From contig JAJDWE010000025.1 in the NCBI GenBank assembly GCA_022825725.1, positions 1 through 50,826 on the forward strand: a stretch of DNA of 50,826 bases, read 5' to 3'. Below, one piece after another: positions 21,201 to 31,928 of this stretch. The translations under genes were made by a program, and so were the position numbers. The DNA comes from Gemmatimonadota bacterium. Its GTDB lineage: Bacteria; Gemmatimonadota; Gemmatimonadetes; Palauibacterales; Palauibacteraceae. The stretch's first letter is position 1. Each line of letters begins with the position of its first letter. The notes beneath the pieces are model-generated. The model was not told the DNA's origin. It saw nothing but the letters and a program-made list of their open reading frames with translations, and ran no database searches.

Positions 21201-22166
21201 CTAGTCCGTCTTGTCGGACATGACGAACGCCTCGACTTCCTCAATCGTGACCCAGCGGTCCCCGCGAAACTCACGCCTCAGAGCGTCCTGCAAAGGCTTG
21301 AAGTTCGGCTCAACACCGAGGGCGAGTTGTTCCGTTTGCCCTCCGTGGAAGGCGAAGCCACCGCCCGGATTGACGCTCCAGATCGCAGCCTTCATCTCGT
21401 TCGACGCCCTCGAGTGGCGACTTGCATGGAAAATGCTGTACTTGTGCTGCCCCCGGTCGTAGAGATCGAAGTGGACCACGTGCTCCGCGCCCGCCTGTCG
21501 GAGTTGACGCTTGTATAGCTCGAACAGGCTGCGGCGACGCTCACGACCATCATCAAGATCGACGTACGCTCTCCAGTCATCACAGCCATAACGTGAGTCC
21601 AGCGGATCAGAGAACTCGCTGCTGCCCCGGAACCGGTTGATGTGCTCATACATGACGGAGATGTAGATCTCGCTCTTTGGGTGAGCCAAGATCCGGGCGA
21701 TGACCTCCATCGGTGTGTCGGAGACCCCGAAGGGATCGACCATCGCAAGACATGGAGCGAGGGTCAGGCCGGCGTCGGTCAGGCCGTCAAGCTCCTTTGC
21801 CAACGTCTCGTCGAACGCACCACGGACGACTTCGACGGATCCCGGAGGAAGCTCCGCGGCGAGGGGTTGAAGGAGACCTTCGAGGTGTCGCGCTCGATCT
21901 TCGTGTTTCTCGATGAACACGAACTTGACCTCGGCAGTGATCATCTTCCTCGCCGAATGCTGACGAAACGCGTTCAGGGCGATGACTGGCGATCCCTGCT
22001 CACCTCCCTTGTACTCGCCCGGCCCCGCGAAGCCGTCGAGGAAGAGGATTCTGCCCTGCGTCTGGCCCAGGATCGGGAGCCACGCTTTCAGGTATTCCTT
22101 CAGAACAAGGTGCTTGCCGAGTGAATGCGGTTTGAGCTCCCAGACTGTCTCGCGTGGCGCTGACAT
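21201..22166 (-). CDS. tcmP: Three-Cys-motif partner protein TcmP
   Basis: ATG 22166 shares one base with the stop of the preceding gene (TGATG), which fixes the start and gives 321 residues. The N-terminus has WELKPHSLGKHLVLKEYLKAW, then a Rossmann-like FLDGFAGPGEY motif (about residue 42) and a later AMVDPFGVSD (about 150). These resemble SAM-methyltransferase motifs I and IV, though no activity is established as far as I know. The TcmP family is named for always occurring beside a protein with a CX5-6CX2C motif, and that partner is the coupled upstream gene. The coding sequence looks less GC-rich than its neighbours, which suggests horizontal transfer of the pair. Confidence 0.88.
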   Translation of the reverse strand: MSAPRETVWELKPHSLGKHLVLKEYLKAWLPILGQTQGRILFLDGFAGPGEYKGGEQGSPVIALNAFRQHSARKMITAEVKFVFIEKHEDRARHLEGLLQPLAAELPPGSVEVVRGAFDETLAKELDGLTDAGLTLAPCLAMVDPFGVSDTPMEVIARILAHPKSEIYISVMYEHINRFRGSSEFSDPLDSRYGCDDWRAYVDLDDGRERRRSLFELYKRQLRQAGAEHVVHFDLYDRGQHKYSIFHASRHSRASNEMKAAIWSVNPGGGFAFHGGQTEQLALGVEPNFKPLQDALRREFRGDRWVTIEEVEAFVMSDKTD

Positions 22167-22954
22167 CAGCCGACGGCGGCAACCGGTGCCGAAGTCATGA
22201 TCGAGGGGAACTGGCTCCACTCGCGTCCGTCCAGGAGTCGACCGCCGGCCTTGGGTGTGAAGCCTCCCCATTGCTTGAAGAAGAAGGGCACGGACTCCCG
22301 CTGACACTGCTCACGGATCGTGCGCGTCCAACTCGATTCCATGGGTCGATGATTCGGTCCGCTCTCCCCTCCAACGATGACCCAGTGGATGCCCTCAAGA
22401 TCGAGTTTCAGGGGGCCCAGTAGCGGCTCGCACGAAAGGAAGCGTACTGCAGCGGGCACTCGAATCAGGTGGGAGCGCCGGTAAGCGACCCTCTGGTTTT
22501 CGATCGAAGTGCCCAGCCAGATGTGGGATGGGATCTCGGTGTGCCCCAACTCTTCGCAGTGTGACGCCCAGAAGGCGGCCGCCCGCGCCGGTCTCTTGGT
22601 CAGCACCTGATAGATGTGGCGGTCGCAGGTCAACATGACTTCGAAGATCCTTCGCACGAACTCCTGCGGGATGTCCTTGTGGAACAGGTCGGACATGGAG
22701 TTCACGAAGATCATCCGTGGCTGGGACCAGCGTTCGGGTTGCCCGAGACGTTCGGGCCACAGCCTCACGGCAAACGGATCTTCTGCGTTCTCCTCCGTTT
22801 CGACGGCGGGCCGACGCCGCATATAGGTATGCCTGAGCCGCCGGCGAGCGAACGCCGCCGCGTAACAGTTGTCGCAGCCAGCGCTTACCTTCGTGCATCC
22901 GGTAACCGGATTCCATGTAGCGTCGGTCCATTCGATGGCTGTTTGTTCACCCAT
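22166..22954 (-). CDS. Three-Cys-motif protein, DUF5131 / phage Gp37-Gp68 family
   Basis: The 262-residue protein begins MGEQTAIEWTDATWNPVTGC and carries C20-x6-C27-x2-C30-Tyr, the three-Cys motif that names its TcmP partner. Family landmarks follow: MIFVNSMSDLFHKDIP, YQVLTKRP, IWLGTSIENQ, RFLSCEPLLGPL, WVIVGGESGPNHRPM and PFFFKQWGG. The Cys spacing suggests a bound metal or Fe-S cluster, possibly in a radical-SAM-like barrel; this is inference. The family is found in phages and mobile islands. The upstream 140 bp, also less GC-rich, probably hold the promoter of this two-gene unit. Confidence 0.88.
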   Translation of the reverse strand: MGEQTAIEWTDATWNPVTGCTKVSAGCDNCYAAAFARRRLRHTYMRRRPAVETEENAEDPFAVRLWPERLGQPERWSQPRMIFVNSMSDLFHKDIPQEFVRRIFEVMLTCDRHIYQVLTKRPARAAAFWASHCEELGHTEIPSHIWLGTSIENQRVAYRRSHLIRVPAAVRFLSCEPLLGPLKLDLEGIHWVIVGGESGPNHRPMESSWTRTIREQCQRESVPFFFKQWGGFTPKAGGRLLDGREWSQFPSIMTSAPVAAVG

Positions 22955-23098
22955 GCGTGGCGTTCCTCTGAGAGCGAATCTCTGGATTCATGACACCGAA
23001 TAAAAACCGAAATCACCCGGATCGCAACCCCCCAGAGAGAGTCTAGACCATGTGCTGGCAATCAACATACGAGTGCGCTTCAACCACGAATCAACAAG

Positions 23099-24277
23099 TC
23101 AACCGCGGTTGCCCTCGCCCCACGCGGAGGTGAGGGGTTCGCCGTCGATGAAGCGGCCGGGGCGGAAGGGTGAGAGGTCGATCTCGGGGATCTCGCCGCA
23201 GATCACGTCGGCGAGCGCTTCGCCGATCGGGGGGCCGAGCTTGAAGCCGTGGCCGCTGCCGCCGAAGAAGGCGTAGTAGCCCTCCAGACCGGGCTCGGGA
23301 CCTACGATCGGGTGCCAGTCGTCGGTGATCGTGTAGAGCGACGCGTAGCCGCCCAGGTGCCGGGCGCGCGACAGAGCCGGGATTCGCTCGAACAGCGGGC
23401 GCTCGATGCGCTCGCGCATCTCCGGGTCGAGGGTGGGCTCGCAGTCGTCCGGATCCACCGGCTCGATATCCTTGGGCGCCCCCAACCCGGCGATGATTCG
23501 ATCTTCGCCGAAGGGTCTCAGGTAGACGCGCAGACCCGGATCGGAGACGACCGGGAGTTCGCCGAAGCCGGCCGGCTTCTCCACGAACAAATCGCTCTCG
23601 CGGCTCCAGCGAAGCGAGTACCTGAGGCCGAGCCAGGCGCCGACCTGCCCCGCCCAGGGGCCCGCCGCGTTCACGACGACATTCGTCGAGATCGTCCCGT
23701 CTTCGGTCTCCACGGCCACCGCTTGATTTCCATGCAGGCGGATGCCCGTGGCCGCGACGCCGGCGCGGGGCTCGAGTCCCCACGGGCGCGCGGCGGCTAC
23801 CAGGTTCTCCGTCGTGCGCGTGGGATCGGCGTAACCCGAGCGCGGCTCGAGGATCCCGTACGAAACGCCGTCCAGCGAGAGCGGCGGTGCCAGTTCGGCC
23901 ACTTCCTCGGCGGCGAGGCGTTCGACGTGGAGCCCGTGCCGCCGCTCCGACTCGAGGATGTGCTCGCCCGCAGCGCGCAGGCGCTCGCCGATGAGGAGCA
24001 GGAAGCCGATGGGCCGGAAGCCGCAGTCGCCCCCGAGCAGGTCCCGGTCGTTCTCGAACATGTGAAGGGCCCGCTTCGCGAGTTCGAGCGTGATCGGGTT
24101 CGAGTAGTACGTGCGGACGATCGCGGCGGAGTGCCCCGTGCTCACGCCCGCCAGGCACCCCTTCTCGAGCAGCACGACGCGCCCGAACCCTCGCCTGGCG
24201 AGGAAGTGCGCGGCGCTGGCGCCCATGATCCCGCCGCCGATCACGACGGCGTCGGCGGTCTTCGCTCCCCCGGTCAT
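23099..24277 (-). CDS. FAD-dependent amine/sarcosine-oxidase-type oxidoreductase (DAO family)
   Basis: ATG 24277 overlaps the stop of hyuB (ATGA) and opens directly on the FAD-binding strand ADAVVIGGGIMGASAAHFLARRG (GxGxxG), giving 392 residues. Further landmarks are VLLEKG, STGHSAAIVRTYYSNP, VVVNAAGPWAGQVG and, near the end, WHPIVGPEP and FFGGSGHGFKLGPPIGEALAD. This is the DAO fold of monomeric sarcosine oxidase, glycine oxidase and DadA-type enzymes, which oxidise secondary or D-amino acids to imines. As last gene of the hyuA/symporter/hyuB operon it could oxidise an amino acid released by the hydantoinase-like enzyme, such as sarcosine from N-methylhydantoin. That pathway is inference. Confidence 0.88.
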   Translation of the reverse strand: MTGGAKTADAVVIGGGIMGASAAHFLARRGFGRVVLLEKGCLAGVSTGHSAAIVRTYYSNPITLELAKRALHMFENDRDLLGGDCGFRPIGFLLLIGERLRAAGEHILESERRHGLHVERLAAEEVAELAPPLSLDGVSYGILEPRSGYADPTRTTENLVAAARPWGLEPRAGVAATGIRLHGNQAVAVETEDGTISTNVVVNAAGPWAGQVGAWLGLRYSLRWSRESDLFVEKPAGFGELPVVSDPGLRVYLRPFGEDRIIAGLGAPKDIEPVDPDDCEPTLDPEMRERIERPLFERIPALSRARHLGGYASLYTITDDWHPIVGPEPGLEGYYAFFGGSGHGFKLGPPIGEALADVICGEIPEIDLSPFRPGRFIDGEPLTSAWGEGNRG

Positions 24278-26034
24278 CGGCCCGGTGACCCGCGCAGTCT
24301 CCTCGTCTCCGCGAGGTCGACTTCCCACGCCCCCGGCTTGATGGCCACGCCGTAGGCTTCCCGGGCCCGGGCCCGCGAGATCTTGCCTTCCCGCGCGTCC
24401 CGGAGCACGGCATCCAGGTCCCGTTCGTGCGCCGGCCCGAACCCGCCGCCGCCCGCCGTCTCGATCCGCACCCGGTCGCCCGTGGCCAACTGTACCGTCG
24501 CTTTCGAACCCAGGTCGCGCGCCTCGCCGCCCGAGATCAGCCGGTAGCTCGCCACCTTCCCGTCGTCTCCCCCGTGGAGGCCGTGGGCCGGGAACCGCGC
24601 CCGGTCCGCCAGCGTCGTGAACGTCGGCTCGTGACCCACGAACTCGTACTCGCGGCAGAGCGCCAGGCCGCCCCGCCGCCGGCCCGCCCCCTCGGAATCC
24701 GGAACGAGGCTGTACTCATGGATCCGCACCGGATAGTTGAGTTCGGTCTCCTCGATGGGCGCGTTCTGCGTGTTCTGGATGTGGGTCTGGACCGCGTCCG
24801 GGCCGTCGGATTCGTGCCGCCCGCCGTACCCGCCCGCGAGCGTCTCCAGGAAGCAGTAGTACTCCCCGGTCGCCGGATCCTCGCCCCCGAACCCGACGTG
24901 GCAGATCATCCCCTTCGTCCCCGCGGGAACCCGTTCCGGCATGGGATCCGCCAGCGCCCGGAACATGATGTCGCACAGTCGCATCGCGACTTCCCACCCG
25001 CCGACGACCCCCGCCGGGGGCCGGACGTTCACCGCCGACCCCTTCGGCGCGACCACCTCGATGGGGCGGTAGAAGCCTTCGTTCAGCGGGATGTCCGGGT
25101 CGACCAGACACTTGAGAACGTAGACGCAGGCCGTGAAGCACTGCGTCAGGTTGCAGTTCATCGGCGCCGCGCGCTGCGGGTCGGTCCCCGTAAAGTCGAA
25201 GCGCGCGGTCGAGCCGTCGAACCGGATCCGGACCTTCAGGCGGACCGGCTCGCCGGTGATCCCGTCGTCGTCGAGACACCCCTCCGCCGCGAACTCTCCC
25301 CGCGGAAGCTCCGCCAGTTCCGCCCGCAGCCGCCGCTCGCTGTAGTCGATCATCCGCTCCATGTAGGAGCCCAGCAGCTCCGCCCCGTAGCGTTCCCACA
25401 GCGCGGACAGCCGCCGCAGCCCGATCTCGTTCGCCGCGTGCTGCGCGCGCAGGTCACCCGCCACCTCCTTCTTCGCCCGGACATTCGCGAGCATGAGCTT
25501 CAGCACGTCGTCCACGAGTTCGCCGCCGTCGAACAGCTTCACGACGGGGAGGATGATCCCCTCCTGGTAGATTTCGCGGAACGCCCCGATGCTCGCCGGC
25601 GCCCCGCCTCCCACGTCCACGTGGTGACAGCAGTTGGCCACGTATCCCACGAGTTCGCCCTCGTGGAAGAAGGGGGTGATGAGGAAGACGTCGTTGAGGT
25701 GGCTCGCCTGCCGGTGCGGGTCGTTGACCAGCAGCCCGTCCCCCGGACCCAGCGTCCCCTCGCCGTGCTCCGCCTCGTACTCGGCCACGGCGCGCGGGAC
25801 CAGCCGCCCGATCGTCACGAGGTGCGCCGGCTGGCAGAACGCCTGCGCGATCATGCGCCCCTCCGCGTCCACGAATGCACACGAATAGTCGAGTCGCGTC
25901 TTGATGTTCGTCGAATAGGCGGTGCGCTGGAGCGTGACCGACATCTCCTCCGTCGCCTCCACGAGCGCGTTCCGGATGACCTCGAACAGGACCGGATCCA
26001 CGGCGCCCCCGGTGCGGCTCTCAGGCTGCGGCAT
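24274..26034 (-). CDS. hyuB: Hydantoinase B / 5-oxoprolinase beta-type subunit
   Basis: The 586-residue protein matches HyuB: DPVLFEVIRNALVEATEEMS, AYSTNIKTRLDYSCAFVD, MIAQAFCQPAHLVTIG, VNDPHRQASHLNDVFLITP, HHVDVGGGAPAS, RFDFTGTDPQRAAPMNCN, and the glycine-rich end RIETAGGGGFGPAHERD. HyuA and HyuB together form ATP-dependent hydantoinase/oxoprolinase complexes that open five-membered cyclic amides such as 5-oxoproline or N-methylhydantoin. ATG 26034 lies inside the end of the symporter gene (14 bp overlap) and the stop overlaps the FAD-oxidase start. The subunit should assemble with the HyuA product encoded two genes earlier. Which ring compound is used cannot be read from sequence. Confidence 0.93.
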   Translation of the reverse strand: MPQPESRTGGAVDPVLFEVIRNALVEATEEMSVTLQRTAYSTNIKTRLDYSCAFVDAEGRMIAQAFCQPAHLVTIGRLVPRAVAEYEAEHGEGTLGPGDGLLVNDPHRQASHLNDVFLITPFFHEGELVGYVANCCHHVDVGGGAPASIGAFREIYQEGIILPVVKLFDGGELVDDVLKLMLANVRAKKEVAGDLRAQHAANEIGLRRLSALWERYGAELLGSYMERMIDYSERRLRAELAELPRGEFAAEGCLDDDGITGEPVRLKVRIRFDGSTARFDFTGTDPQRAAPMNCNLTQCFTACVYVLKCLVDPDIPLNEGFYRPIEVVAPKGSAVNVRPPAGVVGGWEVAMRLCDIMFRALADPMPERVPAGTKGMICHVGFGGEDPATGEYYCFLETLAGGYGGRHESDGPDAVQTHIQNTQNAPIEETELNYPVRIHEYSLVPDSEGAGRRRGGLALCREYEFVGHEPTFTTLADRARFPAHGLHGGDDGKVASYRLISGGEARDLGSKATVQLATGDRVRIETAGGGGFGPAHERDLDAVLRDAREGKISRARAREAYGVAIKPGAWEVDLAETRRLRGSPGR

Positions 26035-27454
26035 CTTGGCCCCCGGTTCGAGTTTCGAGACGCGCCCCGACGCACAGAATCAGGATCGTGAGGGGCAGCC
26101 CGACCAGGATCGGGTCCAGTTCCCAGATGATGACGACGGACCCCACCTCGCGGATCGCCCCGAACGTCTGCCATGCGGCCTGCACCGCGGCTCCGATGAG
26201 CATCGCCGCCATCACCGTTCGCGGCGCCTGCCGAAGCGAGGGGAAGAGGACGATCCCGATGAGCGCGGGGGCGACGGAGGCCCCCATGATCCGTCCCCCG
26301 ATCCAGAACAGTTCGATGAGGAGCGGCAGCGCGAGGTAGAGGACGGCCGCGAGCGCTCCCACGAGGAGGACGTTGAGGCGGTACACCCAAAGCTGCCGGA
26401 CGGCGCTCGCCGTGGGGGCGATGAAGCGCGCGTACAGATCGAGCGTGAAGTTGGAGGCGATCGTGTTGATCGTGCTGGAGAGCGTGGACATGCTCGCCGC
26501 GAGCACGCACACCACGACGAGACTCGCGAGTTCGTTCCCCGCCGCCCCGAACGCGAGCGTGACGAAGGCGTCCTCCGCCGCGAGGCCCGGCCCGTAGATC
26601 GTGCGGGTGACGATTCCGATGAGAGGCGGCGTCATGTACCAGATGGACGCGATGACCCCGCCGTACAGGAACCCCCGCCGGGCGACGTCCGCGCTCCTGG
26701 CCGCAAACCCGCGCTGGATGAGCCCCTGGTACGCGCCCGTGATCGCGAGGCCGATGACGATCCACGCCAGGACCTGGGTCACGCCCGCACGCCCGAAGAT
26801 GTCGATCAGCGCCGGATCGACGCCGGCGCTCAGGCCGCCGAACCCGCCGGCCGCGGCGAGTCCCGCCACCAGCACCGCGATCGAACCGGCCAGGATGATG
26901 AAGAACTGGATCGCGTCGGTCGCCATCACCGCCCACATGCCGCCCAGAAACACGTAGACCGACGTGACGCCGAGCCAGAGGAGGAGCGACTCGGCCACCG
27001 AGATACCGAGCACCGCCGTGGTGACGAGCGTCAGCGCGCCGATCGTCCCCGCCGTCACTCCCATGTCCCGGAGGATGACGAGAATCAGCGAGACGATCCG
27101 GTGCCGAGGGCCGAAGCAGCGGCCGAAGAGTTCCGGGATCGTGATGACGCCGGTCTCCCACAACCGCGGGATGATGAAGTACGCGATCCAGATCGTCCCC
27201 AGCATGAAGGAGCCGCCGCTCCAGTACGCGTCGAGGCCGAAGTCCGCGCCGAGCGCCGAGATCCCGATCAGCGTGGTCCCGTTGATCCAGGTGGCCGCGA
27301 CGGAGAAGGCGATGAGCCACACCCCCGAGTGGCGTCCGGCCACCGCCATGTCCTCGACGGAACGAACCCGCCGCCGGAACCACACGCCGACCCCCAGCAT
27401 GAGGGCGAGGTAGGCCCCGATGAGCCACCACGAGAGCTGCATCCCCTCCGTCAC
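26021..27454 (-). CDS. Sodium:solute symporter (SSS family)
   Basis: The 477-residue protein has about 12-13 hydrophobic helices and SSS landmarks: SWWLIGAYLALMLGVGVWF, AGRHSGVWLIAFSVAATWING (quoted in part), GGMWAVMATDAIQFF, and AASMSTLSSTINTIASNF, a Ser/Thr-rich segment in the area of the sodium site. GTG 27454 is preferred because it overlaps the stop of the tiny upstream gene (GTGA); ATG 27442 is the alternative. The transporter probably imports the substrate of the HyuAB complex using the sodium gradient. Its stop lies inside hyuB. The family transports sugars, amino acids, carboxylates and hydantoins, so the substrate remains open. Confidence 0.9.
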   Translation of the reverse strand: MTEGMQLSWWLIGAYLALMLGVGVWFRRRVRSVEDMAVAGRHSGVWLIAFSVAATWINGTTLIGISALGADFGLDAYWSGGSFMLGTIWIAYFIIPRLWETGVITIPELFGRCFGPRHRIVSLILVILRDMGVTAGTIGALTLVTTAVLGISVAESLLLWLGVTSVYVFLGGMWAVMATDAIQFFIILAGSIAVLVAGLAAAGGFGGLSAGVDPALIDIFGRAGVTQVLAWIVIGLAITGAYQGLIQRGFAARSADVARRGFLYGGVIASIWYMTPPLIGIVTRTIYGPGLAAEDAFVTLAFGAAGNELASLVVVCVLAASMSTLSSTINTIASNFTLDLYARFIAPTASAVRQLWVYRLNVLLVGALAAVLYLALPLLIELFWIGGRIMGASVAPALIGIVLFPSLRQAPRTVMAAMLIGAAVQAAWQTFGAIREVGSVVIIWELDPILVGLPLTILILCVGARLETRTGGQDAAA

Positions 27455-27564
27455 GGCCCGCCGCCCAGCAGCCAGCCCCAGAGTCCGATGTAGCCGAAGC
27501 CCAGGAGCACGAGGATGAGCAGCGCGAGCCACGGGTTGAGGCGCGGGAGCGCGATCCGATCCAT
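27451..27564 (-). CDS. Tiny single-helix membrane protein, possible symporter accessory subunit
   Basis: A 37-residue protein from ATG 27564: a short basic head (MDRIALPRLNP) followed by one strongly hydrophobic helix (WLALLILVLLGFGYIGLWGW) and a glycine tail. It lies exactly between hyuA and the SSS symporter, and its stop overlaps the symporter start. A longer version from GTG 27648, which overlaps the hyuA stop (GTGA), would add 28 residues of Pro/Arg-rich sequence. Small single-helix accessory proteins are known beside some SSS symporters, which supports a real gene; this assignment is by position and topology. Neither start has a good ribosome-binding site, so coupled translation is likely. 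Confidence 0.6.
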   Translation of the reverse strand: MDRIALPRLNPWLALLILVLLGFGYIGLWGWLLGGGP

Positions 27565-27644
27565 GCGGCCCGGATCCGGCGGGTCGGCAGCCTGCCGCTC
27601 CCGCGGTGGCCCGGCGGATCGCCCGGCGGATGGGGTCGGCCCGG

Positions 27645-29813
27645 TCACGGAGCGCCGCCCGGAGAGACGAGAAGGTTGCCGGACTCGTCCACTTCGGCGC
27701 GGTATCCCGCATGGAGGAGCGTGGTGGAGTCGACCTCCTCGATGATCGCGGGGCCCGCCACGAGGTGGCCCGCCCACAGCTGTGCCCGGTCATAGATCGC
27801 GGTCTCGACGAAGCCGGCGGCGTCGGAAAAGAAGACCCGCCTCGTCCCGCGTTGCGCGTCCGCCACGCCCTTCCCGTTCGAGCCGATCCTCGGGAGCCGC
27901 GGCCGCGCGATCCTGCCGATCGCCGTGACCGTGAAGTTCACGAGCTCGACGGGCTGCTCGGGATACCCGTGCCCATAGGCCCGCTCGTGCTCCGCGTGGA
28001 AGCGGCGCACCGCGTCGGCCAGTTTGGCGGCGTCCAGCTTAGCGGCGTCCAGCCCACCGACCGTCCCGTCGTCGGTCGCTTCGCCCGGCAGCGTCACGGC
28101 CACCTCGGACGACTGCCCGGCGTACCGCATCTCGATCCCGCGCCGGAACTCCATGTCCGCCGCGGCCACGCCTTCGCGCCGGAGCGTGCGCCGGCCCTCC
28201 CCCTCCATCGCCTCGAAGAGTTCCCGGATCCGCGCAGTGAACCCGCTCCCGGCAACGTCCGCGTCATCGGCGGCCAGGACCCGGGTTCGCGAGAACTCGT
28301 GGCGAAGGTCCGTCACGAGGAGGCCCAGGGCGGACGCCGTCCCGGGGCTCGGGGGCACCACGAGCGTCGGAATCCGCATCTCCATGCACAGCCGGTTCGC
28401 GTGCAGCGGCCCGGCCCCGCCGAAGGCGACCATGGTCAGCTCCCGCGGATCGTTGCCCCGGCGCACGGTCACGAGGCGCAGCGCGTTGATCATCGTCGCG
28501 TTCGCGATCTCGATGATCCCGTTCGCCGCCTCGATCGGGTCCAGCCCGAGCGGCTCGGCGCAGCGCTCCCGTATCCCCGCTGCGGCCGCATCCACGTCGA
28601 GCGGCATCTCACCGCTCAGGAAGTAGTCGGGGTTCAGCCGGCCAAGTACGAGGTTGGCATCCGTGATCGTCGGCTCGGTCCCCCCGCGCCCGTAGCAGAT
28701 GGGTCCCGGGTCCGCGCCCGCGCTCCGGGGCCCCACGCGGAGCCCCCCTCCGGCATCCACCCAGGCGAGGCTTCCCCCGCCCGCGCCCACTTCCACGAGA
28801 TCGATGACGGGCGTGCGGATCGGGTAGCCGGCCGCACGCGTCATCCCCTGCCCCGGCTGAGCCTGCGCGCCGACCTCGTATTCCTTCGTGACTCGGGGAC
28901 GCCCGTCGAGGACGAGACCCGCCTTCGCCGTCGTTCCTCCCATGTCGAACGAAATCAGGTCCCTGTGACCGAGCCGCCCCGCGATGAAGTTGGCGGAAAC
29001 CACGCCGGCCGCCGGACCCGACTCGACCATGAACACCGGCTTGCTCGTCGCCTGTTCCGCGGTCAGCACCCCGCCGTTCGACTGCATGACGAGAAGCTCC
29101 GCGTCGAGACCGGCCCGACCCAGCCCCTCCTCGATCCCCGCGAGGTAGCGCGCGACCACGGGGACGATGCAGGCGTTGATCACGCACGTGCTCGCCCGGA
29201 AATACTCCCGGAACTCCGGACACACGCTCGATGAGAGGGAGATGAGAAGCTCGGGATCCTCTTCGCGAAGGATTTCGGACACCCGCTCTTCGTGGACGGG
29301 GTTCGCGTAGCCGTGCAGGAGACACACCGCGACCGACCGAACCTCCCGCGCCCGCAGCGCCGCGGCGATCTCCCGGACGGCGCCTTCCTCGAGGGGTTTC
29401 AGCACGCCGCCCTCCGCGTCCAGCCGCTCCGGCACCTCGAAGCACAGGTCGCGCGGCACGAGCGGGCGGAGCTTCTCGAAGTGGACGTCGTAGAGGGAAG
29501 GTCTGACCTGGCGCGCGATCTCAAGCATGTCGCCGAAGCCTTCGGTGGTCACGAAGGCCGTCTTCGGCGTCTTCCCCTCGATGAGCGAGTTGGTGGCGAC
29601 CGTCGTGCCGTGGACGAGGTGGGAGATGGCGCCGGGATCGACCGCGCCGTTCTCGAGCGCCCGCGCCACCGCCGCCATGAAGCCGATGGAGGGATCCGCG
29701 GGCGTGGAAGGGACCTTCGCCGTATCGATGCGCCCGGTCTCTTCACAGATCAGGACCGCGTCCGTGAAGGTGCCGCCCACATCTATCCCGAGGTGGAACC
29801 GGTTGCCCGTCAT
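27645..29813 (-). CDS. hyuA: Hydantoinase A / 5-oxoprolinase alpha-type subunit
   Basis: ATG 29813 opens on the ATP-binding phosphate loop of the HyuA family, LGIDVGGTFTDAVL, giving 722 residues. Other landmarks: VHGTTVATNSLIEGKTPKTA, ALRAREVRSVAVCLLHGYAN, SSSVCPEFREYFRASTCVIN, MQSNGGV, SGPAAGVVSA, FDMGGTTAKAGL, GAGGGSLAWVDAGG, GADPGPICYGRGGTEPTITD and VAFGGAGPLHA. This subunit binds ATP and, with HyuB, opens cyclic amides at ATP cost. A short in-frame duplication (DAAKLDAAKL) lies near residue 590. It is the first gene of a five-gene coupled operon and is divergent from the CocE-type hydrolase across 168 bp, which should contain both promoters. Confidence 0.92.
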   Translation of the reverse strand: MTGNRFHLGIDVGGTFTDAVLICEETGRIDTAKVPSTPADPSIGFMAAVARALENGAVDPGAISHLVHGTTVATNSLIEGKTPKTAFVTTEGFGDMLEIARQVRPSLYDVHFEKLRPLVPRDLCFEVPERLDAEGGVLKPLEEGAVREIAAALRAREVRSVAVCLLHGYANPVHEERVSEILREEDPELLISLSSSVCPEFREYFRASTCVINACIVPVVARYLAGIEEGLGRAGLDAELLVMQSNGGVLTAEQATSKPVFMVESGPAAGVVSANFIAGRLGHRDLISFDMGGTTAKAGLVLDGRPRVTKEYEVGAQAQPGQGMTRAAGYPIRTPVIDLVEVGAGGGSLAWVDAGGGLRVGPRSAGADPGPICYGRGGTEPTITDANLVLGRLNPDYFLSGEMPLDVDAAAAGIRERCAEPLGLDPIEAANGIIEIANATMINALRLVTVRRGNDPRELTMVAFGGAGPLHANRLCMEMRIPTLVVPPSPGTASALGLLVTDLRHEFSRTRVLAADDADVAGSGFTARIRELFEAMEGEGRRTLRREGVAAADMEFRRGIEMRYAGQSSEVAVTLPGEATDDGTVGGLDAAKLDAAKLADAVRRFHAEHERAYGHGYPEQPVELVNFTVTAIGRIARPRLPRIGSNGKGVADAQRGTRRVFFSDAAGFVETAIYDRAQLWAGHLVAGPAIIEEVDSTTLLHAGYRAEVDESGNLLVSPGGAP

Positions 29814-29981
29814 CGCGCCCCAACGTTCCACGCGGGCGTTTCCCGTGACAAGGCACCGCCGTGCGCGACCCGGCGCGCCGCCGCATGCCACGTCTGGACG
29901 CTGTGGTCGACGTCCGTAGGTTGGGAATCGTGGAGACGTCGCCGTGGATAATCCCCTCGCGCACCCACCGAAGGAGGCCTC

Positions 29982-31928
29982 ATGGACCGCAGATCGTTCG
30001 TTCGAGCCGGACTGGCGGGAGCGGGGATGGCCGGACTCGGCGCCGCGTTCGACCCGGAGCGGCTGGCGGGGAGCACCCAGGCAGCCGCCCGCTCGCTCTC
30101 CGCGGAGACGGACGGGGATGTCGTCATCGTGAAGGACGTGCCGGTCCCCATGCGGGATAGCCTCGACCTCATGACGGACCTCTACCTGCCGGCCGTGGAC
30201 GGCGTCCCGCTGGAAGAACCCCTCCCTGCCGTCCTCGCGCGGACTCCGTACGACAAGATGCGCCCGATCTCCATCGAGCACGCGATGTTCTTCGCGCGCA
30301 ACGGGTACGTCTCCGTCGTCCAGGACTGTCGGGGGCGTTTCAACTCGGGGGGCGACTTCTTCCCCTTCGTGCAGGAGCCGGAAGACGGCTACGACACGGT
30401 CGAATGGGTCGCGCGGCACCCCTCGTGCGATGGCCAAGTGGGGACGTACGGCGTGTCGTACCAGGCGTGGGTCCAGTTCGAGACCGCGACGCTGAACCCG
30501 CCCAGCCTCAAGACGATGATCCCCTACGAAGGGCCGACGAACGCCTACACGTACAGCATGAAGTGCGGCGGCGCCCTGGGTCTCGGGCTGCTGCAGTGGA
30601 TTCTGTCCGTCGCGTCGAACGGGAACGAGGCGCGAGCGAACCCGCAGATCACCGAGGCGATCAACGAGATGCGGACGGGGCAGACCTTCCTCGACTGGGC
30701 CTCGCGCATCCCGTGGCGGCGCGGAGAGACGCCGCTCAGCCTCGCGCCCACCTACGAGGAGGCCGCTTTCCAGCTCTACTTCGACAACTACGACTACAGC
30801 GACTTCTGGCGACAGCCGGGCCTCGGCATGGACGAGCACTTCGAGTCGTACCCGGACATGCCGATCCTGTGGGTCGTGGGCTGGTTCGACTGGTATCCGC
30901 GCACGATCAGCGACGGATACCAGGCGATGGTGCGCATGGGGCGGGAGAACCAGCACATCCTCATCGGTCCCTGGACGCACAACAACTTCGCCTCATCGAT
31001 CGGCGACGTGAACTTCGGCACGGAGGGCGCCCGGATCGTCACCTACGACGACTACCTGAACCTCGAACTCCGCTGGTTCGACCGCTGGCTGAAGGGCGAC
31101 GACGGCGCCGACGTGTGGGCCCCCGCGAAGTACTTCATCATGGGGGGCGGCGACGGGCGGAAGGCCGAGAACGGCCGCCTGAATCAGGGCGGTGAGTGGC
31201 GCTACGAGGAGCACTGGCCCCCGGCCGCGGCCGAAGCCACCGAGTTCCATCTCCACGAGGGAGGGGGGCTCGCCCCGGAGGCGCCTTCCACGCCCGCCTC
31301 ATCGACGACCTACACGTACGACCCGCGCAATTCGGTCTCCAGCAACGGCCGCTGCATCGTGGCCTACGGACCCGCGCTCGAGTTCGGGTTCCAGGGGATG
31401 GGCCCGCGCGACCAGATCGAGATGGAGACGCTGCCCGGCCACGGGATCCCCGGCATGCCGATCGCCTCCCGCCCGGACGTGCTCGTCTTCCAGACGGATC
31501 CGCTCCCCGATGATCTGACGATCGCCGGAGACATCACGGCGGTCCTCTTCATCTCATCCGACGCCCCGGACACCGACTTCTACGTGAAGCTCCTGGACGT
31601 CCACCCGACGAGCCCGGATTACCCGAGCGGGTATGCCTTCCCGGTCTCCGAGGGGATCCTCCGCGCCCGCTACCGTGACGGGTTCGAGCAGTCGGTGCTC
31701 ATGGAGGAGGGGGAGGTCTACCGGCTCGAATTCCCGCTCGAACCCGCGGCGAACCTGTTCAAGGCGGGACACCGCATCCGGGTCGACGTCTACAGCAGCA
31801 GCTTCCCCAACTTCGACATCAACCGGAACACGGGAAATCCGCGCGACCGCACGTGGCGCATCGCGAACAACACGGTCCATCACGAGGCCGCCCACGCCTC
31901 GCACGTGCTGCTGCCCCTGATGCCCTAG
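29982..31928 (+). CDS. CocE/NonD (X-Pro dipeptidyl-peptidase-like) hydrolase with Tat signal
   Basis: A strong AAGGAGG site precedes ATG 29982. The N-terminus is a twin-arginine signal (MDRRSFVRAGLAGAGMAGLG), so the folded enzyme is exported. The 648 residues then show the CocE alpha/beta-hydrolase: MRDSLDLMTDLYLP, VLARTPYDK, VVQDCRGRFNSGGDF, the nucleophile elbow GTYGVSYQAW with the catalytic Ser, VVGWFDWYPR with a candidate Asp, and IGPWTHNNF with the His. A C-terminal jelly-roll-type domain follows (DLTIAGDITAVLFISSDAPD, FKAGHRIRVDVYSSSFPNFD). Family members cleave esters, amides or X-Pro peptides. It converges with the amidohydrolase gene, 21 bp separating the stops. Confidence 0.9.
   Translation: MDRRSFVRAGLAGAGMAGLGAAFDPERLAGSTQAAARSLSAETDGDVVIVKDVPVPMRDSLDLMTDLYLPAVDGVPLEEPLPAVLARTPYDKMRPISIEHAMFFARNGYVSVVQDCRGRFNSGGDFFPFVQEPEDGYDTVEWVARHPSCDGQVGTYGVSYQAWVQFETATLNPPSLKTMIPYEGPTNAYTYSMKCGGALGLGLLQWILSVASNGNEARANPQITEAINEMRTGQTFLDWASRIPWRRGETPLSLAPTYEEAAFQLYFDNYDYSDFWRQPGLGMDEHFESYPDMPILWVVGWFDWYPRTISDGYQAMVRMGRENQHILIGPWTHNNFASSIGDVNFGTEGARIVTYDDYLNLELRWFDRWLKGDDGADVWAPAKYFIMGGGDGRKAENGRLNQGGEWRYEEHWPPAAAEATEFHLHEGGGLAPEAPSTPASSTTYTYDPRNSVSSNGRCIVAYGPALEFGFQGMGPRDQIEMETLPGHGIPGMPIASRPDVLVFQTDPLPDDLTIAGDITAVLFISSDAPDTDFYVKLLDVHPTSPDYPSGYAFPVSEGILRARYRDGFEQSVLMEEGEVYRLEFPLEPAANLFKAGHRIRVDVYSSSFPNFDINRNTGNPRDRTWRIANNTVHHEAAHASHVLLPLMP

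Follow-up and report, generated by a model that had tools for sequence, protein, structure and literature searches.

In the genome of a Gemmatimonadota bacterium of the family Palauibacteraceae (assembly GCA_022825725.1) five genes follow one another on the minus strand of contig JAJDWE010000025.1, positions 1 to 50,826; this whole stretch of 50,826 nucleotides is called the window. The gene order is hyuA, a small open reading frame, a symporter gene of the SSS family, hyuB and an oxidase gene of the DAO family. The small frame is the subject of this report. It occupies 27648-27451, comprises 65 codons plus a TGA stop (27453-27451) when read from GTG 27648, and contains an internal ATG at 27564 which opens a 37-residue form. 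The original prediction, made from the DNA letters alone, had this frame overlap the hyuA stop (if GTG 27648 is used) as well as the symporter start, and its coordinates are confirmed. The statement that all five genes touch or overlap also applies to the later junctions: the hyuB start lies 14 bases ahead of the end of the symporter gene, and a possible start of the oxidase frame lies 55 bases ahead of the end of hyuB. We consider it likely that the product of this frame is a genuine membrane protein with a single pass and serves the neighboring SSS symporter as a dedicated accessory subunit.

The genome which contains the window (G000) is 97.7% complete. The family sample comprised 35 genomes, the window's genus 17, and the phylum sample 395. 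Twelve of the 35 family genomes, all within the window's genus, have a close relative of the symporter. The phylum sample gave 11 genomes of 395 with such a relative, again exclusively from this genus; the twelfth symporter genome, G026, is absent from the genus members listed there. The order hyuA, small frame, symporter, hyuB, oxidase is kept at all 12 symporter loci. A frame that is not conserved, or is broken where the operon is kept, had been named beforehand as evidence against a subunit; the helix frame is uninterrupted in each of the 12 operons, and an ATG opens a conserved part of 35 or 37 residues. The stop of the small gene overlaps the symporter start by four bases in seven loci; in the other five a symporter ATG follows six bases past the stop. 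When the phylum sample was searched with a profile of the helix, the symporter-bearing genomes matched at E about 1e-22, and the five genus members which lack the symporter gave no match. In the genomes examined the small gene occurs only together with the symporter gene.

The frame is protein-coding and under purifying selection. In the helix part (35 codons, 11 loci) 18 variable codons carry synonymous changes only and 4 carry non-synonymous ones, counts which do not represent independent events because the loci share descent and are mostly close; of random single changes in this part, 72% would be non-synonymous. The variable sites at codon positions 1, 2 and 3 number 6/1/19 in these 11 loci and 13/4/25 when the divergent copy of genome G034 is included. 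In the comparison with G034, 13 of 33 residues differ, and the rates of non-synonymous (dN) and synonymous (dS) substitution are 0.23 and 1.57. The nine consecutive residues LGFGYIGLW are identical across all distinct variants, the most divergent copy included. Thus, the frame stands beyond chance because all 12 symporter loci carry it and its substitutions cluster at third codon positions.

The picture changes ahead of ATG 27564. Pooled over four loci of equal length, the differences by codon position are 9/18/21 in the first 28 codons versus 3/0/32 in the helix part. The stretch between the hyuA stop and this ATG evolves nearly neutrally and is 21, 23, 27, 28, 33 or 36 codons long among the loci. 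Nevertheless, 11 of 12 loci have a start codon which overlaps the hyuA stop and shares the reading frame of the helix; in the exception, G020 (L034), it is out of phase, and the closest GTG in frame stands 17 bases past the hyuA stop. The 65-residue form as sole product was not adopted because its first 28 codons evolve almost neutrally. Ribosomes may translate the extension into a loose tail, or they may restart at ATG 27564. The original prediction rightly left the two starts open, and selection acts on the part of 35 to 37 residues. A structure model of the 65-residue form has a single helix at residues 39-62, with block values of the predicted local distance difference test (pLDDT) of up to 93, and a tail of low confidence.

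To which neighbor does the helix belong? Twelve further hyuA homologs (42-46% identity) from Gemmatimonadota inside and outside the genus directly adjoin hyuB, with no SSS gene and no small membrane frame in between; in this set the stretch at L089 includes only the first part of hyuB, and L091 has an SSS gene ahead of hyuA. The helix is tied to the symporter and not to HyuAB because all 12 hyuA-hyuB pairs without an intervening SSS gene also lack the small membrane frame. This linkage supports the earlier proposal of a symporter accessory helix.

Outside the genus the helix profile yielded weak matches (E 0.0005 to 0.1). Nine were opened and set aside as chance, on grounds of the frames themselves, as SSS genes in these neighborhoods were not searched by similarity. 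In six of them (L049-L052, L054, L063) the match is one and the same short frame on the strand opposite a conserved gene, presumably a ribosomal-protein gene; the other three lie inside or antisense to longer frames. A plasmid collection contained relatives of the symporter at 25-35% identity only and no match to the helix itself. In three of 20 plasmid records, those which were opened, there was no hyuA neighbor and no annotated small gene ahead of the SSS gene.

Table 1. Features of the five-gene operon in the window
Feature	Position	Strand	Remarks
Small single-helix protein, 37-residue form (ATG 27564)	27451..27564	-	LPRxxPW N-terminal, one helix, LGFGYIGLW invariant; 12/12 symporter loci, purifying selection
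28-codon in-frame N-terminal extension of the 65-residue form	27565..27648	-	Sequence almost free, phase held in 11/12 loci; unstructured, low-confidence in the model
GTGA overlap, hyuA stop TGA (27647-27645) with upstream candidate start GTG 27648 of the small gene	27645..27648	-	
GTGA overlap, small-gene stop with symporter start GTG 27454	27451..27454	-	
SSS-family (SSF, SLC5-like) symporter, 477 aa, proposed partner	26021..27454	-	PF00474 E 9e-36; TIGR00813 E 1.4e-44, below the TIGR00813 cut-off
hyuA-type ATP-dependent amidohydrolase subunit A, start about 29801	27645..29801	-	Best solved relative N-methylhydantoinase
hyuB-type subunit	24274..26034	-	PF02538 E 3e-178
Flavin adenine dinucleotide (FAD)-dependent, DAO-family oxidase, sarcosine oxidase / dimethylglycine dehydrogenase-like	23099..24328	-	

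The best solved relative of the symporter is SGLT2. Compared with solved structures, HyuA scores highest against N-methylhydantoinase (465 bits), followed by 5-oxoprolinase (381 bits). N-methylhydantoin is degraded via N-carbamoylsarcosine and sarcosine to glycine, a route into which the enzymes of the operon would fit. As a guess, the operon enzymes (23099-29801, minus strand) may degrade N-methylhydantoin, or a compound related to it, with sarcosine and glycine as products. The main text of the Palauibacterales paper (PMC10469786) makes no mention of hydantoin, symporters, creatinine, oxoproline, sarcosine or taurine. The substrate of the symporter is probably that of the HyuAB enzyme, i.e., a hydantoin, N-methylhydantoin or a lactam. 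Elsewhere in the window a DUF5131 protein (22166-22954, minus strand) is followed by a 368-residue frame without a Pfam match (21201-22307, minus strand), which we take to resemble the pairing of DUF5131 with three-Cys-motif partner proteins.

The small protein has no fitting model in Pfam or NCBIfam. Its only Pfam matches, DUF4131 with E no better than 0.18 and DUF6049 with E 0.067, are not credible, and the Pfam models DUF3311, DUF485, DUF997 and MAP17 do not match. Membership in NF045580 (symport_access), the product name of which we take to be symporter small accessory protein, was considered on account of a common PW and a common layout: proteins of this type are also very short, carry PW near the start of the hydrophobic stretch and have their gene immediately ahead of an SSS-like one, as seen at L126. 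The corresponding traits are present in the window protein, with 35-37 conserved residues, one modelled helix and an SSS gene next to it in 12 of 12 loci. Membership is ruled out by model searches and by profile comparison. With a cut-off of 35 bits, the window protein has no match to NF045580 up to E 10, none of eight variants matches, and there is no match at this genome position; a profile comparison with one NF045580 member returned a probability of 0.8%. The sole match above cut-off among the 395 Gemmatimonadota genomes is L126 (G035:C51:27004-27102, minus strand), directly followed by an SSS-like frame. The TIGR03647/DUF4212 subunit is likewise a small membrane protein beside an SSS gene and is present in the window's genome at C17. 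The C17 member has 101 residues and matches its model over most of its length, whereas the window protein has one predicted helix and remains unmatched in the very search which recovers this true member.

The kind of protein is familiar. Small membrane proteins encoded together with a symporter are YhdT (DUF997) with PanF, YjcH (DUF485) with ActP, and MetS with MetP, the latter a carrier of the NSS family. A DUF3311 small membrane protein is encoded beside the pyruvate symporter MctP, and its gene is co-regulated with this SSS gene according to the excerpted source. MAP17 (PDZK1IP1) is a single-helix auxiliary subunit of SGLT2 and SGLT1, which belong to the same transporter superfamily as the window symporter. 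In the excerpted text of PMC10803289 its helix contacts transmembrane helix 13 (TM13) of SGLT2 and is regarded as a stabilizing part of the fixed scaffold. MAP17, however, is a human protein, its Pfam model does not match the window protein, and a corresponding role here would be by analogy only. A literature search for 'symporter small accessory protein' returned no papers, and the searches made yielded little on known small subunits. The small protein, previously unnamed, lacks a family model in both collections, but its kind, a partner helix of a symporter, is already known.

How might such a subunit work? Ribosomes finishing hyuA would translate the small frame and then pass to the symporter via the stop/start overlaps. 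Translational coupling of this type would yield both membrane proteins at the same time and in equivalent quantity. Its N-terminus probably inside, the helix would span the membrane once. The invariant LGFGYIGLW may pack on the symporter and stabilize its fold or scaffold, as the MAP17 helix does on SGLT2. Several points weigh against this proposal. The protein matches no named family of accessory subunits. The tree is shallow, as 11 of the 12 loci are close relatives and G034 is the one divergent copy. For the symporter AlphaFold gave a model with a mean pLDDT of 33.5, which was discarded, so that no docking site was obtained from it. A pure translation-coupling peptide would give the same genome linkage, and both contact with the symporter and an effect on transport are inferred by analogy.

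A coupling peptide, i.e., a frame whose main use is to bring ribosomes leaving hyuA to the start of the symporter and whose product does little or nothing by itself, appears unlikely to us. In its favor, stop and start codons overlap or are separated by short gaps on either side of the frame, and there is a precedent in Pseudomonas, where cbrX, a small open reading frame upstream of cbrA and overlapping it, must be translated in full for cbrA to be translated (excerpts of PMC8871633 and PMC9100948). The likeness extends to the downstream product, a protein with an SLC5 domain; the differences are that CbrX has 58 residues and two predicted helices, and that CbrA is a histidine kinase. For mere coupling, however, any open frame would suffice, yet in the helix part it is the protein sequence that is conserved, with variation at synonymous sites, and a block of nine residues in a row stays the same out to the most divergent copy. 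Further, CbrX is itself a predicted membrane protein near an SLC5 domain in these sources; the two roles can therefore coexist. The conserved amino acids argue against coupling as the full explanation.

It is also rather improbable that the protein is a regulator, i.e., a switch of symporter turnover or activity comparable to MgtR, MgtU or AcrZ instead of a constitutive subunit. Small one-helix proteins which modulate or protect transporters are known (excerpts of PMC10710835). Yet the gene is part of the same operon and locked to the symporter start, which makes separate synthesis on demand unlikely; a permanent subunit fits better. Simple scans detected no promoter-like site in 23000-30100 and neither promoter- nor terminator-like sites between the operon genes; the one terminator-like site in this range, at 23007-23020 past the oxidase, is not above shuffle expectation. 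That the frame is a chance opening in GC-rich DNA or the remnant of a lost gene has next to no probability: the high-GC sequence does contain many long spurious frames in the list of open reading frames, and the 28 codons ahead of ATG 27564 are near-neutral, but third-position bias, a dN well below dS, conservation in 12 of 12 loci and the invariant motif contradict it.

An accessory subunit of the SSS symporter, the reading we prefer, raises the issue of other SSS genes in the same genome. The 17 symporter matches in G000 represent 16 distinct SSS genes, and a filter for small hydrophobic frames upstream flagged four of the 15 others; the resulting 5 of 16 is a descriptive count, with no control on genes other than SSS. 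The flagged gene at C17 is the recognized TIGR03647/DUF4212 subunit adjoining its SSS gene. Two further types are unannotated, have one helix by hydropathy and belong to no family. The first, at C79 (L012/L095, G000:C79:17434-17667, plus strand), has 78 residues, overlaps the SSS start and carries a SWRALY motif within the genus. It is present in 13 of the 17 genus genomes, with a symporter-like frame next at -4, +19 or +49 bases in 12 of 13, the remaining locus having been misread by offset. This helix is also found in seven genomes of another family of the class (L146-L152), and an ortholog of the SSS gene (68-74% identity) is next in all seven. The second, at C11 (L006/L108, G000:C11:25385-25651, plus strand), has 89 residues with a long hydrophilic tail and is present in 14 of 17 genus genomes, where a symporter-like frame follows at -4, a four-base overlap, in 14 of 14.

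Among close loci synonymous change is in excess in both of these helices. In such loci the C79 helix has 13 synonymous versus 7 non-synonymous codons (11 of 13 loci), and 12 versus 16 when the divergent loci are included (13 loci). For the C11 helix the counts are 13 versus 6 in close loci (9 of 14) and 13 versus 18 with the divergent locus (10 loci); the search pattern caught 10 of the 14 loci, and the most divergent of these was left out of the close set. The helices of the window, C79 and C11 bear no evident likeness to one another by inspection, no formal comparison among them having been made. At C26 (L016, locus 1250-1483) a hydrophobic frame of 77 residues overlaps the start region of another SSS gene; its best Pfam likenesses, phage holin (0.008) and DUF3311 (0.21), are sub-threshold.

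Tentatively, and with more doubt than confidence, we propose that many bacterial SSS symporters need a private one-helix partner, that unrelated sequences were recruited repeatedly for this purpose, and that MAP17 is the animal version of the principle. We arrive at repeated recruitment because three SSS genes in G000 have their own unannotated, overlapping one-helix gene and a fourth has a DUF4212 subunit. The part worth following is that a single genome has several one-helix partners which seem unrelated to one another. The pairing of the C79 type is kept across two families, and further partners should be findable in the bases just ahead of SSS starts. Genes this small often escape annotation, hence transporters expressed without them may appear inactive. 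Should the helix indeed be a required subunit, the small gene ought to be supplied whenever this carrier, or another of the SSS family, is studied in a heterologous host.

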